Assembly: GCA_011364965.1 (NCBI GenBank)
Contig: RDOB01000004.1
Coordinates: 1-64,000 of the forward strand
Source of the DNA: Candidatus Heimdallarchaeota archaeon
Lineage (GTDB): Archaea > Asgardarchaeota > Heimdallarchaeia > Hodarchaeales > Hodarchaeaceae
DNA: 64,000 nucleotides
Reading direction: 5' to 3'
Part shown: piece by piece, positions 8,271 through 22,473 of the stretch
How the letters are laid out: every line of letters begins with the position of its first letter
How positions within the stretch are numbered: position 1 is the first letter of the stretch
The notes under the pieces: model-generated
The model's database searches: none
Seen by the model: only the letters and a program-made list of their open reading frames with translations
What the model was told of the DNA's origin: nothing
Position numbers and translations under genes: made by a program

Positions 8271-9236
8271 TTATCTTGGTATATGACGGGGAGAGATCCT
8301 TTCATGACAAATAGGACAATGTCCGAACACTTTCAACCATTCTAAAAGATGATTACTATGGAAGGCATTCTCACAATGAGGACATGTTATACGGGGTTCT
8401 GAAGACTGAATGTTATGTCTACATATAACGCAATGGCTTATTTCTGTTCTTGATATGGTTTGTACCCGAGAACTGGTTCGAATTATTTGGTTAACTGCTA
8501 AAATTGAATCCCCGTTTGTTTTTTGAAATAAACTCCCACTTATTTCTCCTTGATCTAATGCATGATTTAATATCTGGTTTATTAATTGAGAATCTATCGT
8601 TTTGTCTTTAAAGTACTTCATTACCTTATAGACAAGGTAATCTGACTCAATTTGATTCCTAGGACGATTAATAATCTTATCAATCGAGTTGTATAAAATT
8701 CTTTTTGTATCAATCAGAAAGAGGATCTTTTCTCGTTTTACTTCTATCGTATCCAAGGTATTAGAAGCAAATTTTTGTATCGCATGCAGAATTGATTGTA
8801 TCTCTTCTGTATTCATTGGAGCTGAATTTATATAGAGTTCAGTTGAACAGTCATCCATCAACGTTTTTATTTCAGAATGTAGTTCTTCTAGTTGCAATAA
8901 TACTTCCTTGAAAACACTTAATGGTTGCATAGGTTCAACTAATTCCACTAAAACAGCTGTTTTTTGAACTTTAAGTCTTCTTTCTCCTAATTCTTCAATA
9001 TAACGAGAAACTTCAATAAAAAAGGGCTTTCTAAAATGCTTATTAATTAGATAAACGCCAGTTATTATTGCTAAACAGCTTCCGAGTATAAAGATTTGAT
9101 CAATATTAGTGATTACACCTGAATTGAATCCAGTAAGAAGAATAAACCCACTGGATACTAAAACAATTAGAATGATGACATTTCCTGTGGTTTTATTCCG
9201 TGCGAGTCGAGAAAGTTTGGTGATGTTTGAAGCCAT
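8271..9236 (-). CDS. Membrane protein with C-terminal RING-like zinc finger (NSE1-type, C4H2C2)
   Basis: The preferred start is the ATG at 9236 behind AAAGGTG; an in-frame ATG at 9278 would add 14 residues. Two adjacent membrane helices occupy about residues 20-55. A long helical cytoplasmic region follows. The C-terminus has eight putative zinc ligands, spaced C-x2-C-x12-C-x2-C-x4-H-x2-H-x10-C-x2-C, with a W four residues after the second His and CPIC at the end. That order resembles the RING-like finger of the NSE1 SUMO/ubiquitin ligase subunit and membrane RING E3s more than a plain zinc ribbon. A role as ubiquitin-ligase-like protein at the membrane is inference; no E2, E1 or ubiquitin gene is in this window. 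Confidence 0.6.
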   Translation of the reverse strand: MASNITKLSRLARNKTTGNVIILIVLVSSGFILLTGFNSGVITNIDQIFILGSCLAIITGVYLINKHFRKPFFIEVSRYIEELGERRLKVQKTAVLVELVEPMQPLSVFKEVLLQLEELHSEIKTLMDDCSTELYINSAPMNTEEIQSILHAIQKFASNTLDTIEVKREKILFLIDTKRILYNSIDKIINRPRNQIESDYLVYKVMKYFKDKTIDSQLINQILNHALDQGEISGSLFQKTNGDSILAVNQIIRTSSRVQTISRTEISHCVICRHNIQSSEPRITCPHCENAFHSNHLLEWLKVFGHCPICHERISPRHIPR

Positions 9237-9353
9237 ACCTACACCTTTAATAACACAGGAGCAAATGAAATAGATCACTATATTTCTAACTGGAAACTTA
9301 ATAAGCTCGTCTAGAAAGTCTTTCCGAATGAAATTTAGGAAATAGCGGGAAAG

Positions 9354-10286: not shown

Positions 10287-10469
10287 AAATCCGTCATGTA
10301 TACTGCTCTAATTGAGTTGAAAATCGTTTTTGAATTCAAAAGCTTAAAAATATCATTCAGATATATACCTTGATTAGAGGTTTTTTAATAATCTCATTAA
10401 TCTTATCTCCAACAAGATAATCTTTATCGGTTATTTACTCATAAATCGATCCTTGGAAAGTAATTGAGA

Positions 10470-11219
10470 ATGGTTCGACTGAAAGCAGTACATATCATCA
10501 CTGAAGAAGGGTTTACTATCTATAATCAATCTTTTGGAGCCACAGAACAGGATCAGGATATGGTAGGTTCTTTGATTATGGCTCTAACCTCATTTGGAAA
10601 GGAGGCTATGGGAGAATCATTATCCTCGTTAGCTTTTGGAAAAGAGGAGGAGGGCAAAGGGGGAGCAGATATGATATTGGAATCAGGAGATAGAATTATT
10701 TCTATCGCGATTGTTGTTCTTGATAAAGATCATAAAGAAAGAGAGGAATATAAAATTCGTAATGACTTGCGAAGATTCACAAAAGAAGTGGAAAGAATCT
10801 ATGCAGACGATTTGAATGACCCCATTTTTCAAAAAAGTGCATTTTCGGGAGTAGGAACGCTTATCTTTTCCATATTCTTCCGCGACATGATGTCACGTAT
10901 TTATAACCAAGATTTTGCGAGCCTAAGTGAATATATTCGGTTCCCAACTACTTTACTTTTTGAAATTACACCTCGTGGCCCAAAACTCTATGGTTTCTAT
11001 CGTGAGTTTCCAGCATTTAAAGAGGCAATGCTAGGGATCCCCATTGAAGAATTTGACAAAATAATTGAAAACATGCAAGACAGAAATAGTATGGTTTCCT
11101 TCAAGGACTGCTTAGAAAGTTTTGGTATAGAAAAAGGTGGTCAAATACTGGAAGTTTTCAAATTTCTTACAAAACGAGGTATGTTTGAGGCATATAATTT
11201 TGAACGAATCGACTCGTAA
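10470..11219 (+). CDS. Longin/roadblock-fold domain protein
   Basis: About 249 residues with the ATG at 10470 (a TTG six bases upstream is possible). The N-terminal ~110 residues read as a longin/roadblock-type fold: strand LKAVHIITEEGFTIYNQSF, a helix beginning DQDMVGSLIMALTSFGKEAMGE, then strands DMILESGDRIISIAIVVLD and a long C-terminal helix. The second half is helical with a final segment that could be a small winged helix. Proteins with this N-terminal pattern are abundant in Asgard archaea and are thought to partner small GTPases. It sits head-to-head in convergence with the coiled-coil/tubulin cluster. Family call is from pattern only. Confidence 0.5.
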   Translation: MVRLKAVHIITEEGFTIYNQSFGATEQDQDMVGSLIMALTSFGKEAMGESLSSLAFGKEEEGKGGADMILESGDRIISIAIVVLDKDHKEREEYKIRNDLRRFTKEVERIYADDLNDPIFQKSAFSGVGTLIFSIFFRDMMSRIYNQDFASLSEYIRFPTTLLFEITPRGPKLYGFYREFPAFKEAMLGIPIEEFDKIIENMQDRNSMVSFKDCLESFGIEKGGQILEVFKFLTKRGMFEAYNFERIDS

Positions 11220-11227
11220 GGATTTCT

Positions 11228-12058
11228 CTATTTTTCGGATGCTTTCATTGCATTAATTATAAGAGCGGTCATTTTTTTCACTTCCTTCCGAGTTTCGGAC
11301 AATTCTGACTTTATTTCGCTCTCTATGACAGCGTTCATTTCTTGTTTCATTGCTTCAGGAAGATTTGCAACACGATTTATTAGCTGATCGGTTTTTAGTG
11401 TTAACTGTTTAATTGCAGTCTCTTGGGACACTAAACGTTCTGTTACAGATGTTTTTAATTCGTTCACGGATGCTTCGAGATAAATAGCAATTCTATCTCT
11501 TAAAGATGCTAATTCAACCTGAATTATAGCATTTACACGATCGCGCAGGTCTGCAACCGTTGCTAGTTGATCAGTCTGATTTTGAATCAAAGCATTTAGA
11601 CTATCTTCTATTCTTTTGACTTGTTCAAGAATAGACACAAAATTATTCACAGTTGCCTCATATTGCCCTTTAGTAGTAGATGCAGCCTCTTTTACAATTT
11701 CCGTTATCTCATTCGATAAATTACGCATACTAACGACAACGTCTTCTACATAACTTACCTTTATAAACTTCAAATCGTTTCGGGTTTCTTCAGTGGTCTT
11801 TTCAAAGGTTCTTTGGATCGCATTTAATGCTTCTGTAAGATTAGAGATCATTGTTGGGAGGTTTTTAATTGAATTTTGCAAAGAAGTATCAATTTTTGAA
11901 TCTTCTAGAATTGAAGTTATCACAAGCATTTGTCTCTGTAGTTCATGGGCACTTGCTTGGAATTCTTCTGTCAAATTACTTGATCCAAACCTATCAATGC
12001 TCTCCTTAAGCTTCAATGTCATTCGTAAGATTTCATTGACATTATCTTCTAGACCCAT
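11228..12058 (-). CDS. Coiled-coil protein of the tubulin-like cluster
   Basis: A 276-residue, almost wholly helical protein with regular heptad-like spacing of Leu/Ile/Val, rich in Glu, Lys, Asn, Thr and poor in Cys, Trp and Pro. No catalytic motif, signal peptide or membrane segment is visible. It is the last gene of the minus-strand cluster 18095-11228, separated from the preceding gene by 111 nt, so it may have its own promoter (an AT-rich stretch lies at about 12080-12150). Its composition resembles filament-binding or tether proteins, as in methyl-accepting-type coiled coils without the signalling tip. Function is not known; a link to the tubulin-like protein rests on position alone. 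Confidence 0.6.
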   Translation of the reverse strand: MGLEDNVNEILRMTLKLKESIDRFGSSNLTEEFQASAHELQRQMLVITSILEDSKIDTSLQNSIKNLPTMISNLTEALNAIQRTFEKTTEETRNDLKFIKVSYVEDVVVSMRNLSNEITEIVKEAASTTKGQYEATVNNFVSILEQVKRIEDSLNALIQNQTDQLATVADLRDRVNAIIQVELASLRDRIAIYLEASVNELKTSVTERLVSQETAIKQLTLKTDQLINRVANLPEAMKQEMNAVIESEIKSELSETRKEVKKMTALIINAMKASEK

Positions 12059-12169
12059 ATTTTACCCTCGCATAGGATTTTAATTCGTTTAATACTAAGA
12101 TTAAAGATTAGATATGATATTTCATTTTTTGCTTTGAAATTCGATTCTATTCTTTATCCTTTTGGGATA

Positions 12170-13195
12170 TTATTTGAGACTTCTTAAAAATGTTTTAAAT
12201 CGGTTATTGTTCAATATTGAATCATTTAGTCGATGAATCAAAATTACTGTTTCCGAATTGATCAACTGCTTGAAATCATTTCCGATACTCTCATTGAGAT
12301 CATTATACGTTTCTTTGGCTATTATATATGATATATTTGGAATTCTTGATTCTAAATCCCCCGCTCCTAGATTGTAATTCTGGAGGATACCTTCCGATAT
12401 CCGAAATGAATCACTTAAAGAATAACTACCCTCCGCGTATTTTGAAATGCTCTCAAAGTATCTTTTTACCACATTCATTATATCTAACTCATCATCGGGA
12501 GTTAGTAATGAGGCTTCATCATTAGGATACATCTTTTTTAAATTCTGGAGAAGTCTAGCGGAAGGAGCCTCTCTAAGTAATTTGGCGATTAGAGCTTGAA
12601 TTCGCAAAACTGGAATTTGAATTACCTCATTACTATTGATTAAAGCTTGAATCGATCCTGATTCATACTTCAACAATTCCTGACAAGCGGTAAAATAATA
12701 CTTGGGAATTGCTAGATGAGATAAATTCGAATATCCAGTAAAAAGGGTAGTAATGTGTTCAAGAATCCCCCATCGATCTGTAAAATCAATGTTTCTCGAA
12801 AATAATCCTATTTTTTCAGTTTCTTCTTCTAATATTCTCCTAGGTGACCTTAAAATGCTTTTATCTATTATTTTTCCCTCTAAAATAGTAATTAGCAAAT
12901 TATTTAATTTTTCTACTTGGTCATGTAATTGAGGAGTTGATTTTGGATTTTCTAACAGTTTTTCAGTAATAGATTTTATATTATTTAATTCTTCTATTGT
13001 TTGGTTAGATAATATTTTTGAATTTTCAAGATCAAGAACCAATGATGATAGTAGATGAAGTATTGAAACATTGAAACCCAAAATTATATTCATTTTCTCT
13101 CCAAGATTTCCTCTGCTAGTCCAGAAATCAATTTCACCTAACTTAGAGGATTCGTTTCCTGTTTGATTTTTTATCTGGGAATGTTCATCATCCAA
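12170..13195 (-). CDS. Conserved-looking helical protein downstream of tubulin-like gene
   Basis: A 341-residue soluble, mainly helical protein that I do not recognise. The N-terminal ~25 residues are polar and probably disordered; the rest has amphipathic helices and a segment ASLLTPDDELDIMNVVKRY suggestive of a helical-repeat or adaptor domain. There is no P-loop, metal motif or membrane helix. It begins 14 nt after the stop codon of the tubulin/FtsZ-like gene, with TTAGACC-type spacing too tight for a separate promoter, so co-transcription is likely and a role as partner or regulator of that GTPase is a reasonable guess. Confidence 0.6.
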   Translation of the reverse strand: MDDEHSQIKNQTGNESSKLGEIDFWTSRGNLGEKMNIILGFNVSILHLLSSLVLDLENSKILSNQTIEELNNIKSITEKLLENPKSTPQLHDQVEKLNNLLITILEGKIIDKSILRSPRRILEEETEKIGLFSRNIDFTDRWGILEHITTLFTGYSNLSHLAIPKYYFTACQELLKYESGSIQALINSNEVIQIPVLRIQALIAKLLREAPSARLLQNLKKMYPNDEASLLTPDDELDIMNVVKRYFESISKYAEGSYSLSDSFRISEGILQNYNLGAGDLESRIPNISYIIAKETYNDLNESIGNDFKQLINSETVILIHRLNDSILNNNRFKTFLRSLK

Positions 13196-13209
13196 AATGG
13201 TCTAACCTC

Positions 13210-14574
13210 TTATTTTTGTTCTGGTTTCATATAATATCCGAATAATTTTTCCAAATCTTGAACTGCGTTCTGTAATTCCGCTTGTGTAGTCCCTTTTGAA
13301 CGCTTAAACCAATGTTGTTTTAGTTCTGAATCACCACTATGTAGCTCTATCAAAGACTTTGCCTCCTCAAGTAAATTATATAACTCAGGCACTTTGGGTA
13401 ATCCGAATAATAATAAAAGTGATGATTTTATCTTATCATCATCAAAAGCACAATAAGTTGGAGATATGCTAGCACCTTTTGCTAAGAAAGGAGTTAATGC
13501 CTTTTTTAGAAGTGGGTCGAATTCCACCCTTGCAATATCTTTGGGTCCACTGAGAACAGAGAAAACAGAGGATGCTCCTGGATTAGTACCCATATATGTT
13601 AAGCTACAATTCGCGGCAGTATATTCTACGGCAGTAGAGAGCTGAGAACCGACTCCACCGATTTCTGGAAAAATAGATAAATCATCATACATTGCAGGTA
13701 CAACAACACTATCCAATTTCAACGCAAAATCACCAATATCAGTAGTGGGTAAAACCTCCTTTCCAATTTCTGGAACACCAGGAGAAAGCATTTCTGCAAT
13801 GCAATCCAAAGCTAAAGGATTAATTAATTCAACAAATTCTTCTTCCATCTTTACAGGGAGGTCTGTTGATACTTGTCCTAAAACATTAGGGGTTGATGTC
13901 CTTCTTACCTCTGCACTTACATCTGCTAAGTCTAAACCAGTTTTACTCAGCAGATCGACTGATTCTCCTCGCTGCATACTCAAGACACGATTAAGCATTG
14001 TACGATTTGATAGGAGAAGAATTAAATCTGGTCCCATATTTCCCTCTTCAAGTTGAAGACGAAGAAGACGAGATAATGCCCAGATACTATTAACTGCCTC
14101 CGATGATTGATTGTCGAACGGAAGAACCCCAAAAACATAGATGAAAATTTTTCGTTTTTCCTCTTTTGCAAATCGCTCACGAAGTAACCTAATTAAAGCA
14201 GGGGTTCCCCCACATCCAGTACCTCCACCAAAGGAAGTAAAAATGCAAAAACCGCTAATCCCCTCATATCCTAATCCTTGTAATTGGTTTAGTATAATAT
14301 CTTGAGAATTCATTACTGCATCATAACCAGCAGAAAATTTTCCTCCGACACCTATTTCAGCGTCTGAATAGAGTAAAGTTCGTTTTTTAGATATAGAATA
14401 TTTTTTTCGTGCTTTAAGAAGATCCCCGCGATCAGTATTCATTACCAAGTATTCTCGGATTCTGGGGGGAAGTTCTCCTTTTTTTGATTTTGCTAAATAA
14501 CTTCCTACAAGATTTGAACCGCATTCACCAATTCCAATTGCAAAAATTTCAGATTCTGGAGCTTCAACTGTCAT
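13210..14574 (-). CDS. Divergent tubulin/FtsZ-superfamily GTPase
   Basis: A 454-residue member of the tubulin/FtsZ/CetZ superfamily. The T1 loop reads GIGECGSN (residues 14-21), the T3-adjacent NTDRGDL is at 46-52, and the guanine-phosphate T4 loop reads GGGTGCGGTP (116-125), in place of GGGTGTG/SG. LPFDNQSSEAVNSIWAL (152-168) matches the CetZ/FtsZ H5-S5 region with its conserved E and N. A candidate T7 catalytic loop TTDIGD (278-283) keeps the two acidic residues of FtsZ NxDxxD but not the Asn. It is longer than FtsZ, close to tubulin length. It is in an operon after a 1169-residue coiled-coil gene (11 nt apart) and before a helical protein (14 nt). It presumably polymerises; whether it is FtsZ-like, CetZ-like or a separate group needs a tree. 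Confidence 0.85.
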   Translation of the reverse strand: MTVEAPESEIFAIGIGECGSNLVGSYLAKSKKGELPPRIREYLVMNTDRGDLLKARKKYSISKKRTLLYSDAEIGVGGKFSAGYDAVMNSQDIILNQLQGLGYEGISGFCIFTSFGGGTGCGGTPALIRLLRERFAKEEKRKIFIYVFGVLPFDNQSSEAVNSIWALSRLLRLQLEEGNMGPDLILLLSNRTMLNRVLSMQRGESVDLLSKTGLDLADVSAEVRRTSTPNVLGQVSTDLPVKMEEEFVELINPLALDCIAEMLSPGVPEIGKEVLPTTDIGDFALKLDSVVVPAMYDDLSIFPEIGGVGSQLSTAVEYTAANCSLTYMGTNPGASSVFSVLSGPKDIARVEFDPLLKKALTPFLAKGASISPTYCAFDDDKIKSSLLLLFGLPKVPELYNLLEEAKSLIELHSGDSELKQHWFKRSKGTTQAELQNAVQDLEKLFGYYMKPEQK

Positions 14575-14585
14575 TTAAAATCCTC

Positions 14586-17500
14586 CTAAACATCCAGCTT
14601 TGTATTACTTTTTATTTCGATTAATAATTTCATAACAAGAGACAAGTATGCCTGAATCACCTCATTATGAGGATAAGTTTCTTTAATTTTCTTTGATATT
14701 TCTTTATATTGACGAATGTTCTCTTCTGCATTATCAGTAGGGGTATAACGCGGACGAAACATTCGGATAGCTCTATGCCAGCGATTTAACTGGATAGATA
14801 CATCTTTCCATTTCTCCCTTTGGGTATCAATTTCTGGTAATAAATCTAATATAAATCGTAAATTATGAGAATCCATCAAATCTTCTCTCAATTCGATTAA
14901 GGTGGACAACGGGAAAATTTTACTAGATGCTTCTTCTATGTACCGTTTAAATACTTCTTGAATGCTCGTATAATATTCTAATTGCCCTAAAGATCCTTGA
15001 AGAGTAGTATTTCGATCTTTTTCTATAGTTTTCATCAATTGAATAATCGTACTGCGAACGTGAGCAACTTCTAATATTGCAGTTGTCAGATGTCCTATAT
15101 GGTTTGTCGTGGCTGTTGTTTGAAATCTGTTCAAATAAGATAAATCGACTCGTTCATCGCGTCTAAGATCTTGTTGATAATTCAAAAAAACATACTCTAT
15201 GCTTTCTTGTATCTCTGCTATATATTGCTCTCCCATCTTACGGATCTCATTACATGCATTTGGATCTGTCTGGAGGTTGTCAATTTCCACAAAAACTTCC
15301 GTAATTTCCTTGATCTCTACATCTTCTTGATTCTTTACAATTATTTGTGAAAATCTCTCAATATAGCCTCCAACATGAGAAATTATGTTGATTCCCACTT
15401 CTTTTAAATCATTGACATTTTTCAATACTTTGCGAGATTCTTGGACAGCCTGAGCTAATAATTCTGATACTATTTCTGTATCATAGAGGAAAATCAATTG
15501 TCGTAAGTTATTTGCTATTCGCTCATGAGAAATCTCATCTATCTGAAAATTAAGGATTTTTTGCTCCGCAGCATAAACCCTAGGATCTAAGGGTATTATT
15601 TCATTTATTCTGGGTAAACTTACACGTAACCAACTATATAGATTTTGGTGAAGGCCAGCTAAACAATCTTTTGCCATTTGCAAACTTTCTAAGCTATAAC
15701 TCTCAAAAACATTGACTAATCGTGTAATATCCTTATGAGTTTTGATCTCTTTTCTTTTATCTTCCATAAGTTTGACTAAATCATTAAAAAAGTGTCCATA
15801 TTGAAGTGGTAATTTAGAATAATCTTGTATGTGAGAGGAAAGCTCACGTTCCATCTGTTCAGCGATGGTAGAAATTCTTCGATCTATATAGGCTTGTAAT
15901 TGCCAATATTCGGTCAAAGCTTCTGAATAATCAAGATTACTTAATTCTTTTTCGGCGGGGTACTTCACACTACCTGTTTGAGATTGAAGAAGCCTGCTGA
16001 GCCTTTTATCAACTCTTTCAAGGTTTTCAATATGCTTTTTTATTTCAACCAAAATTTCATTTTTATTTTCTTCAATTGCTTCTAGGAACGTTATGTATTC
16101 TTTAATCACAGCTTCCACATTTCCAGTTTCTGCGTGTTTATCGATAAGAGAAATGAACTGGTTTCTCTTTTCTCTTAAATCAAACTCAGTTTCGATTGGT
16201 AACAGCGGAAACGGAATATTTTTTAGATTATCTCTTACCCGGGAAATTATTTTAAATTTCCAAACGGGTATCTTTTCATATTCATCTAATAGGCTTTGAA
16301 TACTGTCATCTGCTGCAATGTTTAGATCTTCACGAATAGTCTTCAAATCCTCTAGGTCTAATGGGGGAACATGTGCCTTAAGTTTGGGAGGGATTGTTTC
16401 TAAGTTAGTGAATTGATTAAAAATTGGGTGGATTTCTTGGTCAATCGAGGTCCATATTTCAATTTTAATGTCAGCATTAAGACGATTAAGCACCTCAATT
16501 TCCTTAACAAGCTCACGAATTTCTTTATCCTCAACCTCTTTACGATTCTTTTGCTCTTGTATGCGTTTGGTTAGTTCTTCTGAGAGGATTCCTCGTAAAC
16601 TTTCACGTGAATCATATAAATTGAACAGGTTTTGACGCATTGCCATTTGGGCTGGTTTTGAGAAATATGCAATTAACCGAGTCTCCCAATCTTTAATTTC
16701 TCGCACTTTATTAACTAATTCACTTGGTGAAAGCGTTTCAAAGTCACGGACTGTGGGGACTTGAGGACCATCGCTTACATTAATTACTTCTTGTATGTAG
16801 GGATTCTCTAACAATCTGAAGAAATAATTTTGGCATTCCTCACTTAATTGCGATTTTATATCGTAGTATTGTTTAATTATATGTACCCAATCTTGAAGGT
16901 CAGTTATTTTTTCAGCATCTTTCTCAATCTGCCGAATTAAATCAACAAAACCTTCAGGAAGGGGTATTTTCATTGCATTTATGGTTTTGCCTGCGTTGAT
17001 TAGCTCAGCAGGGGTAATAATTTTTTTTACTGCTATTATTTGTTGTTGATGCCAAGAACGTACCTTTTCTATATCTTGGATTATACTAGGAATTGAAGAG
17101 GAAGAAACATCAATTTCAGGAGCAGGTTTTAAATTCGATTCAGAAGATTCTTTACCTATTATTTGCATGATTCTACCAATTTGATCATCCGTTTCAGTTT
17201 TCAAAGCGATCTCATAGGTTCTTAATGCGTTTATAAGCTCATTTGCGTGATTATTTAGCGTTTTTTCAATCTCTAATAGATTTTCTACCGATTTTGCATT
17301 ATCTGCTTCAGATTGAATATCTTTAATTTGCTGTTTCAATGCTTGGGGCTTATCTCCTAAATCTAGCCCTATTGAAGAGATGGTATCTAAATGCTGTAAT
17401 ATTTCAGATGACAGTTGAACAATAGCAACTTGAATTTTACCCTTTGTTCCTTTGCGACGCTGTTTCAAGTAAGCATTCTCTGCTTCAAGCTGATCGTATA

Positions 17501-18095
17501 GATTGAGAAGATCGGAAATTGATAAGACATGAATACTTGTTTTAGTAGTCTGACTTGTAATACGAATTTTCTCTTCGTCAAAATCGACGAATTTCTCGTA
17601 TAATTCGATAACTTCGCGATTAAAAGCTAATACAGATAAATTTTTTCCTCTCAAAACTTCTGAAATCTCGTTGTAGGTTTTTAGTACACTAGCACTGAAT
17701 TTTACGATCTGAGAGGGATCGAAACTTGGGATTTGCAATTTTTTAATGGTTTCTGTTTCTTGAGGTATGAATTTCGCTATTTCCTTGATGTTATTTGCCA
17801 AGTCAAAGTAAATTTTACGATACCCAACAAGTAGAGTATTAAGTAGGCTTTCATTTAATTGATTATACTTCTCCATATATTGCTGATAATTTCTTTTCAA
17901 TCCTCTTTTCTTGAGAAAACCAGCTGAAGGAATATCATTTTGAAGCTTTTCTATTTCTCCCATTAATCTTTGGGCTTCGTTTAAGGATGGGACAACTTGT
18001 ACCGTGGGATCTAATGATCGAAGCTCTGTTGCCAAATCTCTTATTTTAAGGAGTACTTCTTTAGAAACAAGAAGTCCTTCAGTTTCTGAAGACAT
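14586..18095 (-). CDS. Giant coiled-coil protein upstream of tubulin-like gene
   Basis: A 1169-residue protein made almost entirely of long alpha helices, with heptad-like hydrophobic spacing interrupted by short Pro-containing turns roughly every 80-120 residues. That periodic breaking suggests stacked spectrin-like or tethering-type helical bundles instead of one rod. Only the region near residue 70 (FLKKRGLKRNYQQY) is strongly basic. There is no P-loop (so not an SMC or dynein-like motor), no membrane helix and no signal peptide. It is the first gene of the cluster, followed after 11 nt by the tubulin/FtsZ-like gene, so it is a strong candidate filament-binding or anchoring partner. Function is inferred from position. 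Confidence 0.7.
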   Translation of the reverse strand: MSSETEGLLVSKEVLLKIRDLATELRSLDPTVQVVPSLNEAQRLMGEIEKLQNDIPSAGFLKKRGLKRNYQQYMEKYNQLNESLLNTLLVGYRKIYFDLANNIKEIAKFIPQETETIKKLQIPSFDPSQIVKFSASVLKTYNEISEVLRGKNLSVLAFNREVIELYEKFVDFDEEKIRITSQTTKTSIHVLSISDLLNLYDQLEAENAYLKQRRKGTKGKIQVAIVQLSSEILQHLDTISSIGLDLGDKPQALKQQIKDIQSEADNAKSVENLLEIEKTLNNHANELINALRTYEIALKTETDDQIGRIMQIIGKESSESNLKPAPEIDVSSSSIPSIIQDIEKVRSWHQQQIIAVKKIITPAELINAGKTINAMKIPLPEGFVDLIRQIEKDAEKITDLQDWVHIIKQYYDIKSQLSEECQNYFFRLLENPYIQEVINVSDGPQVPTVRDFETLSPSELVNKVREIKDWETRLIAYFSKPAQMAMRQNLFNLYDSRESLRGILSEELTKRIQEQKNRKEVEDKEIRELVKEIEVLNRLNADIKIEIWTSIDQEIHPIFNQFTNLETIPPKLKAHVPPLDLEDLKTIREDLNIAADDSIQSLLDEYEKIPVWKFKIISRVRDNLKNIPFPLLPIETEFDLREKRNQFISLIDKHAETGNVEAVIKEYITFLEAIEENKNEILVEIKKHIENLERVDKRLSRLLQSQTGSVKYPAEKELSNLDYSEALTEYWQLQAYIDRRISTIAEQMERELSSHIQDYSKLPLQYGHFFNDLVKLMEDKRKEIKTHKDITRLVNVFESYSLESLQMAKDCLAGLHQNLYSWLRVSLPRINEIIPLDPRVYAAEQKILNFQIDEISHERIANNLRQLIFLYDTEIVSELLAQAVQESRKVLKNVNDLKEVGINIISHVGGYIERFSQIIVKNQEDVEIKEITEVFVEIDNLQTDPNACNEIRKMGEQYIAEIQESIEYVFLNYQQDLRRDERVDLSYLNRFQTTATTNHIGHLTTAILEVAHVRSTIIQLMKTIEKDRNTTLQGSLGQLEYYTSIQEVFKRYIEEASSKIFPLSTLIELREDLMDSHNLRFILDLLPEIDTQREKWKDVSIQLNRWHRAIRMFRPRYTPTDNAEENIRQYKEISKKIKETYPHNEVIQAYLSLVMKLLIEIKSNTKLDV

Positions 18096-19237: not shown

Positions 19238-21541
19238 ATGTCTGATGAATCTATTAAACCCCTCTTCTTAAAAGTGGCCGAAGCAAACCAAGGTGACGTT
19301 GGAAGAGGACTAGTCCGTATTGATTACCAGATAATGCGAGAACACAATCTCGAGACTGGGGATATCGTCGAAATATCTACTGATAGAGCAGGTGGAAGAA
19401 AAACTGGGGCATTAGTAATCCCTGGGAGAAGAGAAGATCGGGGAAAAAGGATTATTCGAATGGATGGCCTAATTAGAGGTAATGTTGGAACATCTTTAGG
19501 GGAAACTGTGAAAATAAGACCAATAAAGAAAAAAAAGGCGAAGAGGATTACGATAGCTCCAGCAGAAGAACGAATAAGGTTACTGGTCCGCTCTGACATA
19601 ATTCGTGAACGTTTACAGAATCATCCTATATCACGTGGGGATCTATTAGTTATTACGGGTCAGATCCGTAAAGTTCCACCTTCTGGTGGCCCAAGTGGAA
19701 CTGGTATGGATGACTTCATTTCTCGGTTTTTTGGAGCATCAAGTCCTGTAAGTTTGGGTGAAATCAAAGTCGTAGTTGTATCAACAGAACCAGAGGGAAT
19801 TGTTACAGTTGGGGAAACTACAGAAGTCAACATCATCGAAGAAGCACCAAAAGATTTGCGCATGATGCCTCGTGTGACTTATGAGGACATTGGAGGACTT
19901 TCAGAGGAAATTAAAAGGGTAAGGGAAATGATCGAATTACCCATGAAACATCCAGAGTTATTTGAGCGTCTTGGCATTGAACCTCCAAAAGGAGTGCTTC
20001 TTCATGGACCTCCAGGAACAGGAAAAACATTACTTGCCAAAGCAGTCGCAAATGAATCAGGGGTGAATTTTGTTTCAATTGCTGGACCTGAAATTATGTC
20101 CAAATTTTATGGTGAAAGTGAACAAAGAATCCGTGAGATCTTCCAGCAATCAGAAAAAGAAGCACCTAGTATTATATTTATTGATGAGCTGGATTCAATA
20201 GCAGCCAAACGGGAAGAGGTAACTGGAGAAGTTGAGCGACGGGTGGTTGCGCAATTACTTGCATTAATGGATGGATTGAAAAGCCGAGGAAAAGTAATTG
20301 TAATTGGTGCAACAAACCGTCCAAACGCACTTGACCCTGCTCTGAGACGCCCTGGGAGATTTGATCGTGAAATTGAGATTGGAGTTCCTGATAGAAATGG
20401 ACGCTACGAAGTGCTCTTAGTGCATACACGGGGAATGCCTCTTGCTGACGATGTAGATTTAGAACAAATTGCAGCGATAACACATGGATTTGTTGGCGCA
20501 GACATAGCAGCATTAGCAAAAGAAGCAGCAATGCATACACTACGCAAAATTCTTCCTAAAATTGACTTTGATAAACCTTTGTCTCCAGAAATTTTGCTTA
20601 AATTAGTAGTTTCAGAGGAGAATTTTGAAGAAGCACTAAAAGTCACTGAACCGTCAGCTATGAGAGAGGTATTATTGGAAATTCCCAACGTGAGATGGGA
20701 GGATGTCGGGGGTCTTGATGATGTTAAACAAAAACTTATAGAAGCAGTCGAATGGCCAATAGCCAATCCAGAAATCTTTAAACGCCATGGAATTCGACCC
20801 CCTCATGGTATCCTATTGTATGGCCCGCCAGGGACAGGAAAAACATTATTAGCGAAAGCTGTAGCTACAGAGAGCCAAGCAAATTTTATTGCAATCAGGG
20901 GCCCTGAATTGCTTTCCAAATGGGTGGGAGAAAGTGAAAAAGCAATAAGAGAAGTGTTCCGAAAAGCCAAACAAGCTGCTCCATCCATCATCTTTCTAGA
21001 TGAACTTGATGCTATAGCTCCACGAAGAGGAGCATTTACTGGAGGAAGTCATGTGATGGAAAGTGTTGTTAATCAAATTTTGTCCTTAATAGATGGATTG
21101 GAAAACTTAAGAGATGTAGTCATTTTAGCAGCAAGTAACAGACCTGATATGATTGATCCAGCTTTACTACGGCCAGGCCGATTTGATAGAGTCCTTTTAG
21201 TTAAACCACCTGACACAGAATCAAGAGAAAAGATACTAAAAATCCATACAAAAGGAATGAAATTAGCAAAAAATGTAGATCTTCCCCAGCTGGCTAAAGA
21301 TTTAGAATGGTACGTTGGTGCTGATATTGAAGCCATCTGTCGTGAAGCAGTTATGACAGCACTTCGTGAAGATATCAACACTGATTTTATTACTATCGAT
21401 CATTTCAAAGAAGCTTCTAAGGCTATTCACCCGAGTACTAGTGAGGATATAATCAAAAAATTTGAGGAAATGGAAAGACAATTACTTGGAAAATCAGAAA
21501 TTGGGCGAAAGGATTTACTAGGGTTAAAAGATTACCTCTAA
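19238..21541 (+). CDS. Cdc48/VCP-like AAA+ ATPase (two AAA domains)
   Basis: A full-length 767-residue Cdc48. The N domain (about 1-185; double-psi barrel beginning [14 protein letters not shown]) is followed by D1 and D2 AAA domains. Walker A GPPGTGKT occurs at about residues 256-263 and 529-536, Walker [11 protein letters not shown] and [10 protein letters not shown] follow each, and both domains have the GATNRP/AASNRPD sensor region and [16 protein letters not shown] arginine-finger motif. It unfolds protein substrates by ATP-driven threading, in archaea feeding the 20S proteasome. The C-terminus lacks the HbYX ending; the last residues are LKDYL, which may matter for proteasome docking. 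Convergent with the next gene, ends overlap by 4 nt. Confidence 0.97.
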
Positions 21542-22473
21542 GGCGATTTATAGATATCTAGAGGCCATTGCTTTTGCATTAATTTTAATAAAATTCGAGA
21601 GTCAAATTGATCCATTTCTATCGGACTGGTAGAAGTTTTCATCAGTCTCTCCGCTATTAATTTTGCACGAACCACTGAATCTGAATATCCTATAATAAGT
21701 CCTATTACTAATGGATGATTCTTCACAACAACTAATTGTAAATCAGAGGCGGTTAACACTTCCATCCCTGTTGATTCTTTGTTCAACTCGCTCATTGTTT
21801 CATTAATGCCCTTATTCAGCTGATCAAGTACAGTTGTAGAGATATTTGTGAATTTAGTTGTGTAGATTTGATTCGTTTCAAGATCTATCAGTATTACAAC
21901 CCGAACTTTGCATTTAAAACGAGATTCTTCTCCAGCTATGACATCTGCTAACCAATCAAATGCATCATAAAAATTTTCACCAGTTTTAGCTGAAATCCTA
22001 AACAATCCGACTGGTCTTGCCGATCTTGCAGCTCTGGGGAGATCTAAGTCCTTAACGATCAAATCAAATGACCGTGAACCAGGGAGATCAATTTTATTGG
22101 CAATGAAAAGAACGGGAACCTTATCATTCTGCTGTATTGAGTTCCAAAATGCTTCTGATGCTTCTGATATTCTTATATCAGCACTATCAAGCACAAATAC
22201 TATTGCTGATGCCTTTTTTATTGAGTCATGCCAGAGAAGATTACGATAGATTTGTTGTCCACCCAAATCAACTAAATTAAATTCAATTTGTCTATAACGA
22301 ACGGTACGGTAATTCACTCCTAGAGTTCGTGTGGTAGGAATAAATTCAGAACGAAGTAAACGATTAACAATTGTGGTTTTCCCAGCACCATCAAGACCAA
22401 TAATTGCGATCTCGTATTTCTCGGATTCTTTTGCATGGAATATCCGCCGGAGGATGCTTGACACAGTTATCAC
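21538..22473 (-). CDS. Arf-like small GTPase fused to a C-terminal longin/roadblock-like domain
   Basis: A 311-residue fusion. Residues 20-180 are an Arf/Sar-type GTPase: G1 GLDGAGKTT (26-34), an effector Thr near 47-50, G3 DLGGQ (69-73), G4 NKID (126-129) and G5 SAK (161-163). The DxGGQ catalytic glutamine is present, so GTP hydrolysis is expected. An amphipathic N-terminal stretch (SSILRRIF) could insert in membranes as in Arf. Residues 188-290 (RVVILIDLETNQIYTTKF, a helix, VLTASDLQLVVVKNHPLVIGLIIGY, a final long helix) look like a longin/roadblock fold, the fold that usually binds GTPases in trans. Asgard genomes carry many small GTPases; this domain pairing is notable. The C-terminal domain call is inference. 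Confidence 0.8.
   Translation of the reverse strand: MITVSSILRRIFHAKESEKYEIAIIGLDGAGKTTIVNRLLRSEFIPTTRTLGVNYRTVRYRQIEFNLVDLGGQQIYRNLLWHDSIKKASAIVFVLDSADIRISEASEAFWNSIQQNDKVPVLFIANKIDLPGSRSFDLIVKDLDLPRAARSARPVGLFRISAKTGENFYDAFDWLADVIAGEESRFKCKVRVVILIDLETNQIYTTKFTNISTTVLDQLNKGINETMSELNKESTGMEVLTASDLQLVVVKNHPLVIGLIIGYSDSVVRAKLIAERLMKTSTSPIEMDQFDSRILLKLMQKQWPLDIYKSP

Follow-up and report, generated by a model that had tools for sequence, protein, structure and literature searches.

FtsZ and tubulin complete GTP hydrolysis between stacked subunits, and the H11-H12 surface of tubulin is the binding site of associated proteins and motors; canonical FtsZ lacks tubulin-like C-terminal helices. CetZ proteins are the tubulin-like proteins of archaeal cell shape. 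A further group, FtsZl/Tubulin_2, reportedly recognized by Makarova and Koonin in 2010, is said to consist of tubulin-superfamily GTPases with their own partner genes. Among Asgard archaea, CetZ/tubulin-like paralogues named Asg.Tub have been described as scarce, occurring in Heimdallarchaeia and Lokiarchaeia, of uncertain position near tubulins or CetZ, and with coiled-coil genes nearby (Santana-Molina et al. 2023, PMC9871819), and non-canonical superfamily proteins of unspecified kind have been mentioned in Asgards (PMC9856176). Here we analyzed positions 1 to 64,000 of contig RDOB01000004.1 from Candidatus Heimdallarchaeota archaeon (the window), where an earlier note made from the sequence had pointed out a tubulin/FtsZ-like GTPase gene directly downstream of a very large coiled-coil gene. 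We consider it fairly probable that Hodarchaeales have in this locus their copy of a three-component Asgard tubulin-superfamily system that combines a filament with a scaffold and is separate from the FtsZ division machinery.

Gene layout and features of the GTPase

Four open reading frames, here called CC, GTPase, h341 and cc276, lie head to tail on the minus strand from position 18095 to 11228 (Table 1). The spacers on either side of the GTPase gene measure 11 nt (from CC) and 14 nt (to h341), exactly as the earlier note had them, and 111 nt separate h341 from cc276. A Shine-Dalgarno-like GGAGG precedes the ATG of the GTPase gene. Only the GTPase matched a known family in Pfam, with a PF00091 (Tubulin) score of 65.7 bits (9e-18) vs a cut-off of 33. 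Several genes around the operon are also kept in relatives. A 251-aa protein encoded convergently with the operon at 10464-11219 (+) is conserved in Hodarchaeales (54-69% identity) and had no Pfam match, while the protein at 8271-9278 (-), kept near the operon in Hodarchaeales, has a weak C-terminal RING-finger match (PF13639, 8e-4, below the cut-off). An Arf-family GTPase with a long C-terminal extension (21538-22473 (-); PF00025, 4.6e-34) is likewise kept in the neighborhood.

Table 1. Genes of the locus and mapped protein features (window coordinates)
Feature	Positions	Strand	Description
CC	14586..18095	-	1169-aa all-alpha protein; core operon gene 1; ORF
CC middle stretch	16131..17015	-	About residues 361-655; long only in Hodarchaeales
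GTPase	13210..14574	-	454 aa; tubulin superfamily; core gene 2; PF00091
T1 loop GIGECGSN	14512..14535	-	GTPase residues 14-21
T4 loop GGGTGCGGTP	14200..14229	-	GTPase residues 116-125
Variable insert before helix H7	13846..13977	-	GTPase, about residues 200-243; low confidence; roughly 45 residues
T7 loop PTTDIGD	13729..13749	-	TTDIGD = GTPase residues 277-282; acids D279, D282
Helices resembling tubulin H11-H12	13231..13326	-	GTPase residues 417-427 and 431-448 in the model
h341	12170..13195	-	341 aa; TTG start; core gene 3; ORF
cc276	11228..12058	-	276 aa; coiled-coil-like; Hodarchaeales accessory gene; ORF

The nucleotide-binding motifs are strongly conserved. Across 22 divergent members of the GTPase family, G14, G16, E17, G19 and N21 of the T1 loop, the glycines of the T4 loop and both T7 aspartates (22/22) are invariant. 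The T4 loop reads GGGTGCG in 20/20 family proteins examined and serves as a family signature: FtsZ has GGGTGTG there, and CetZ and tubulins have GGGTGSG. The motifs and the Pfam match thus bear out the initial view of a superfamily GTPase that has T1, T4 and T7 and keeps both T7 acids.

Structure prediction, which the earlier note had suggested, was done with AlphaFold on single chains. Using the 22-sequence alignment, we obtained a model of the GTPase alone with a mean pLDDT of 83.7 and a pTM of 0.85, comprising the GTPase domain, H7 (240-266), T7 (276-282), a C-terminal sheet (290-391) and then three helices. The predicted structure is the complete two-domain fold of FtsZ, CetZ and tubulin; the insert preceding H7 falls below pLDDT 50 at residues 219-244 and has the lowest conservation in the protein. 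When this model was compared to known structures with Foldseek, gamma-tubulin, tubulin, CetZ1, AtubB and OdinTubulin were all returned at E about 1e-17, with a TM by target of 0.83 for CetZ1 and a TM of 0.68/0.73 over 495 columns for OdinTubulin.

Placement within the tubulin/FtsZ superfamily

To place the GTPase, we used an unrooted tree of 41 proteins (PMSF, LG+C20) that covered the GTPase family, FtsZ, CetZ and the Asgard/Odin tubulins. The GTPase family (97/97), FtsZ (100/99), CetZ (99/99) and the Asgard/Odin tubulins (100/100) formed four separate groups, and all 13 FtsZ rows, Asgard FtsZ1 and FtsZ2 included, were on one side of the 100/99 branch with the GTPase family not among them. The family forms its own clade outside both FtsZ and CetZ, as the proposal of a GTPase distinct from these had implied. 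A split joining it with the tubulins was found at 95/92, with long branches, and trees in which it was forced to group with CetZ (AU p 0.08) or with FtsZ (AU p 0.14) were not rejected. Given that neither alternative was rejected, we regard the family as distinct and its sister group as uncertain.

Profile scores point the same way with respect to FtsZ: the GTPase reached 31.9 bits with the NCBIfam FtsZ model TIGR00065, below its cut-off of 295.2. With PF13809 (FtsZl/Tubulin_2) it scored 18.0 bits vs a cut-off of 27, matching only around the T4 loop. The host genome contains one further PF00091 gene, which lies on another contig and encodes an ordinary FtsZ, indicating that the GTPase system is additional to FtsZ. 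In another genome of the same class (G035), an AtubA/AtubB-like pair of tandem tubulin genes (433 and 432 aa, GGGTGSG) was observed at L036:9097-11680.

The C-terminal end of the GTPase family follows the pattern W-F-x3-K-G ... A-x2-D ... L-F, preceded, after the C-terminal sheet, by a helix that aligns with the VPRIKEL...EA helix of CetZ. A profile of this end scored 26.4 against three Asgard/Odin tubulins, with a maximum of 17.7 in 200 column shuffles, and 18.1 and 12.7 against the ends of CetZ (on the earlier helix) and FtsZ, respectively. No tubulins were retrieved when the PDB as a whole was searched with a profile of this end, so the H11-H12 assignment rests on the model and the pairwise profile test, and the helices appear tubulin-like on predicted structure. 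Because the corresponding surface of tubulin carries associated proteins and motors, these helices are a candidate docking face.

Partner proteins and conservation of the gene unit

The earlier note had described CC as a giant coiled coil. The gene and its position upstream of the GTPase were as described, but the AlphaFold model (pLDDT 84.4) is entirely helical with many short to medium helices, and because none extends beyond about 44 residues, the term is loose and "all-alpha helical protein" fits better. CC had no significant match in Pfam or NCBIfam and no credible one in a sequence-profile search of the PDB. With Foldseek, no PDB fold matched at E<=0.001, and neither PDB search linked CC to a known scaffold protein. 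We had considered an EzrA-like or spectrin-like nature, which these same searches did not support, EzrA being absent among the Foldseek matches listed. The middle of CC, about 290 residues, has a conservation of about 0-0.1 vs 0.5-0.6 at both ends. Homologues are about 895 or 1170 aa long, and in those of ~900 aa the middle is absent or unalignable. Such length variability fits a spacer or cross-linker.

These properties might also be accommodated by a membrane-trafficking or organizing GTPase that forms dimers or short oligomers under nucleotide control and, through them, brings in CC as a long tether, in the manner of helical tethering factors. CC is large and all-alpha and varies in length in its middle, as would be expected of a spacer, and MUN-domain, vinculin and dynein-tail helical proteins are included in the list of weak, non-significant Foldseek matches of CC. 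However, none of its fold matches is significant, the T7 acids, which are required mainly for hydrolysis between stacked subunits, are kept everywhere, and loci from different lineages have no trafficking genes in common; we consider this explanation quite unlikely.

The h341 family has the conserved motif L-x-EAP-x-ARLLQ and is conserved downstream of the GTPase. It could not be identified as a known adaptor, as Pfam and PDB searches gave no credible match. Homologues of cc276 were found beside Hodarchaeales copies (41-53% identity) and none next to Thor, Hermod or Borr loci. CC, h341 and cc276 all lack a clear transmembrane segment; hydropathy over 19 residues reached at most 1.82, in h341. 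We also considered as a fourth core gene a ~470-aa gene downstream in Thor and Borr loci, the consensus of which looks like a CoA-binding/CoA-ligase protein by sequence, but it was not common to the other lineages.

CC, GTPase and h341 are present together in Hodarchaeales, Thorarchaeia, Hermodarchaeia, Borrarchaeaceae/Sifarchaeia and two more families. A scan of named genomes with strict peptide patterns, which missed families f9 and f10, returned only Asgard loci (Hodarchaeota/Heimdallarchaeota, Thorarchaeota, Hermodarchaeota, Borrarchaeota, Sifarchaeum and two labeled Lokiarchaeota), and the presumed Asgard origin of the DNA is supported. The one of the two "Lokiarchaeota" copies included in the tree was placed among Thorarchaeota. 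Our locus table has 67 rows representing 59 distinct loci, as eight contigs were entered twice. CC is directly upstream of the GTPase in 62/67 rows, the exceptions being at contig ends or in two Hodarchaeota loci into which other genes are inserted (L044, L045), and h341 is directly downstream in 55/67, the exceptions being contig ends or three second-copy loci. When eight representative loci (two of them Hermod-type) were compared, only these three genes were common to distant lineages. The operonic link between CC and the GTPase is therefore conserved, as had been anticipated, but the conserved unit is exactly three genes, CC-GTPase-h341; the four-gene order first proposed does not hold, since cc276 was seen only beside Hodarchaeales copies. 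With a clade outside FtsZ and CetZ and a CC link kept in relatives, the sequence-based grounds on which the earlier note would have been refuted do not apply.

Some loci depart from the usual arrangement. CC and GTPase are interrupted in two Hodarchaeota loci (L045:6166-9774 and L028:905-10745), in one case by a 1202-aa ORF that matched nothing in Pfam and in the other by about 9.8 kb of genes; elsewhere the operon is tight. In families f9 and f10 (L093-L096) the three core genes mostly overlap and the T4 loop is GGGTGCGAT, and one of these loci (L094) is flanked by aminoacyl-tRNA synthetase genes. Divergent from the operon adjoining it, a Thorarchaeial gene (L048:5124-7031, minus) encodes a 635-aa protein with WD40 beta-propeller matches, and similar-sized ORFs occupy this position in most other Thorarchaeial loci.

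Among 228 Asgard genomes, we found the GTPase in 68 (E<=1e-60), CC in 70 and h341 in 68. This GTPase with its fixed partner pair contrasts with true tubulins, which occur in about 1% of surveyed Asgard genomes according to a published report (PMC13394414). All three genes were confined to families f1, f2, f9, f10, f11, f26 and f28, and none of them was found in the other 22 families, including one of 65 genomes (f19) and the remaining families of the window's class. The evolutionary distances of the three proteins correlate (Mantel r 0.93-0.98), a correlation that shared species history also gives. Three Hodarchaeales genomes have a second CC-GTPase locus with the genes 12 nt apart and without h341 (L037:3040-8795, L038:9103-14893, L039:8920-14678); its CC is about 23% and its GTPase about 53% identical to the first copy, and joint duplication of CC and GTPase is the simplest reading. 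Upstream of the second pair is a conserved gene for a 310-312 aa protein of no known family, which could not be related to h341 (hhalign probability 0.1%).

The distribution also bears on two other explanations. The GTPase could be a third Z-ring component that co-assembles with or regulates FtsZ, with CC and h341 as ring cross-linkers or anchors in a role like that of the non-homologous EzrA, ZapA and SepF. Consistent with this, nearly all genomes carrying the system have at least one further PF00091 gene, and archaeal FtsZ paralogues frequently act in pairs (FtsZ1/FtsZ2). On the other hand, the GTPase is its own clade and no offshoot of FtsZ, entire FtsZ-bearing families, f19 included, are without the system, no adjoining division genes are common to the lineages, and the listed CC fold matches do not contain EzrA, all of which makes such a role unlikely. 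A function in DNA or plasmid segregation, as for TubZ and PhuZ, would agree with the shared superfamily and with operonic partners of no assigned function. Yet the loci are on long chromosomal contigs with housekeeping neighbors, their distribution tracks lineages, a pattern scan of viral contigs revealed no relative (a viral origin was rejected on the same result), and no DNA-binding domain was recognized in the partner proteins; we view segregation as highly improbable.

Proposed mechanism and comparison with known systems

We favor a filament-plus-scaffold system apart from FtsZ division. The retention of the T7 acids in every member, together with the predicted two-domain fold, points to GTP hydrolysis between stacked subunits, and the obligate linkage of its gene to those of CC and h341 suggests a complex, or a filament that has associated proteins of its own. 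In the mechanism we envisage, the GTPase would assemble into GTP-dependent protofilaments, with GTP held in the T1-T6 loops and D279 and D282 of the next subunit's T7 loop activating hydrolysis in trans. CC might bind to the filament and act as its dedicated scaffold, spacer or cross-linker, for which the C-terminal helices of the GTPase would be the likeliest docking face, while h341 may be an obligate adaptor or regulator and cc276 an accessory layer in Hodarchaeales. The system could have a role in cell shape or internal organization. Counting against this mechanism are the T that replaces the T7 asparagine of FtsZ, the apparently longer loop before it, and the absence from CC of a recognizable membrane segment and a known scaffold relative; moreover, some members of the superfamily may form no classical filaments. 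With somewhat less than even confidence, we propose that it is an undescribed cytoskeletal system across much of Asgard, in which a deep-branching sister of the tubulins would form filaments with two obligate, Asgard-specific helical partners; on this reading, a machinery of filament plus associated proteins would have existed in the lineage apart from both AtubAB microtubules and FtsZ.

If the GTPase polymerizes, the archaea closest to eukaryotes would have a separate and widespread machine of the tubulin superfamily. The position of the GTPase near tubulins, together with its C-terminal helices, would be relevant to the origin of tubulin and its associated proteins. CC and h341 also add two apparently new protein families of testable function.

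The closest description in the literature is that of Asg.Tub, which, as described, resembles our system in the presence of coiled-coil genes near an Asgard CetZ/tubulin-like GTPase. The main text on it contains neither the three-gene unit nor Thorarchaeia nor the partner families (PMC9871819). The Asg.Tub group may include the GTPase studied here, which is why its being undescribed is probable and not certain. As for other reports, in the passages surveyed the subject of recent papers on Asgard tubulins is AtubAB and Odin tubulins and that of the OdinFtsZ paper is two FtsZs, with the CC-GTPase-h341 system absent from them. The three-gene unit and the CC and h341 families appear to be undescribed in the open-access literature, to which our survey extended.

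Other superfamily systems were compared as well. With regard to TubZ and PhuZ, the GTPase is on chromosomal contigs, and the pattern scan of viral contigs gave no relative. FtsZl/Tubulin_2 is similar in joining a superfamily GTPase to its own partner genes, but PF13809 remains below its cut-off and neither a von Willebrand A nor an OmpA-family partner was recognized beside the GTPase by Pfam. FtsZ1 and FtsZ2 share a profile match to the GTPase domain (E 2e-10) and two aspartates in T7; however, the asparagine of NxDxxD is T in the GTPase, the loop preceding T7 appears several residues longer, the clades are separate, the TIGR00065 cut-off is far off, and a canonical FtsZ is encoded elsewhere in the host genome. 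CetZ gives the best profile match to the GTPase domain (E 7e-13) and the highest TM by target, but is a separate clade with a different T4 loop and a T7 consensus of SSEIIN where the GTPase keeps D..D, and it is without the extra C-terminal helices and the two obligate partners, CC and h341. AtubA/B, OdinTubulin and eukaryotic tubulins resemble the GTPase over the full-length fold (TM 0.62-0.68 over about 495-508 columns) and apparently in the H11-H12-like helices of its model, and the Asgard/Odin tubulins join it in the unrooted tree, although this grouping is not firm, sequence similarity is confined to the GTPase core, and the GTPase has neither the long N-terminal insertions of tubulin nor a tandem second subunit. 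Set beside these systems, the GTPase is a further tubulin-superfamily family with two obligate and apparently undescribed partners.
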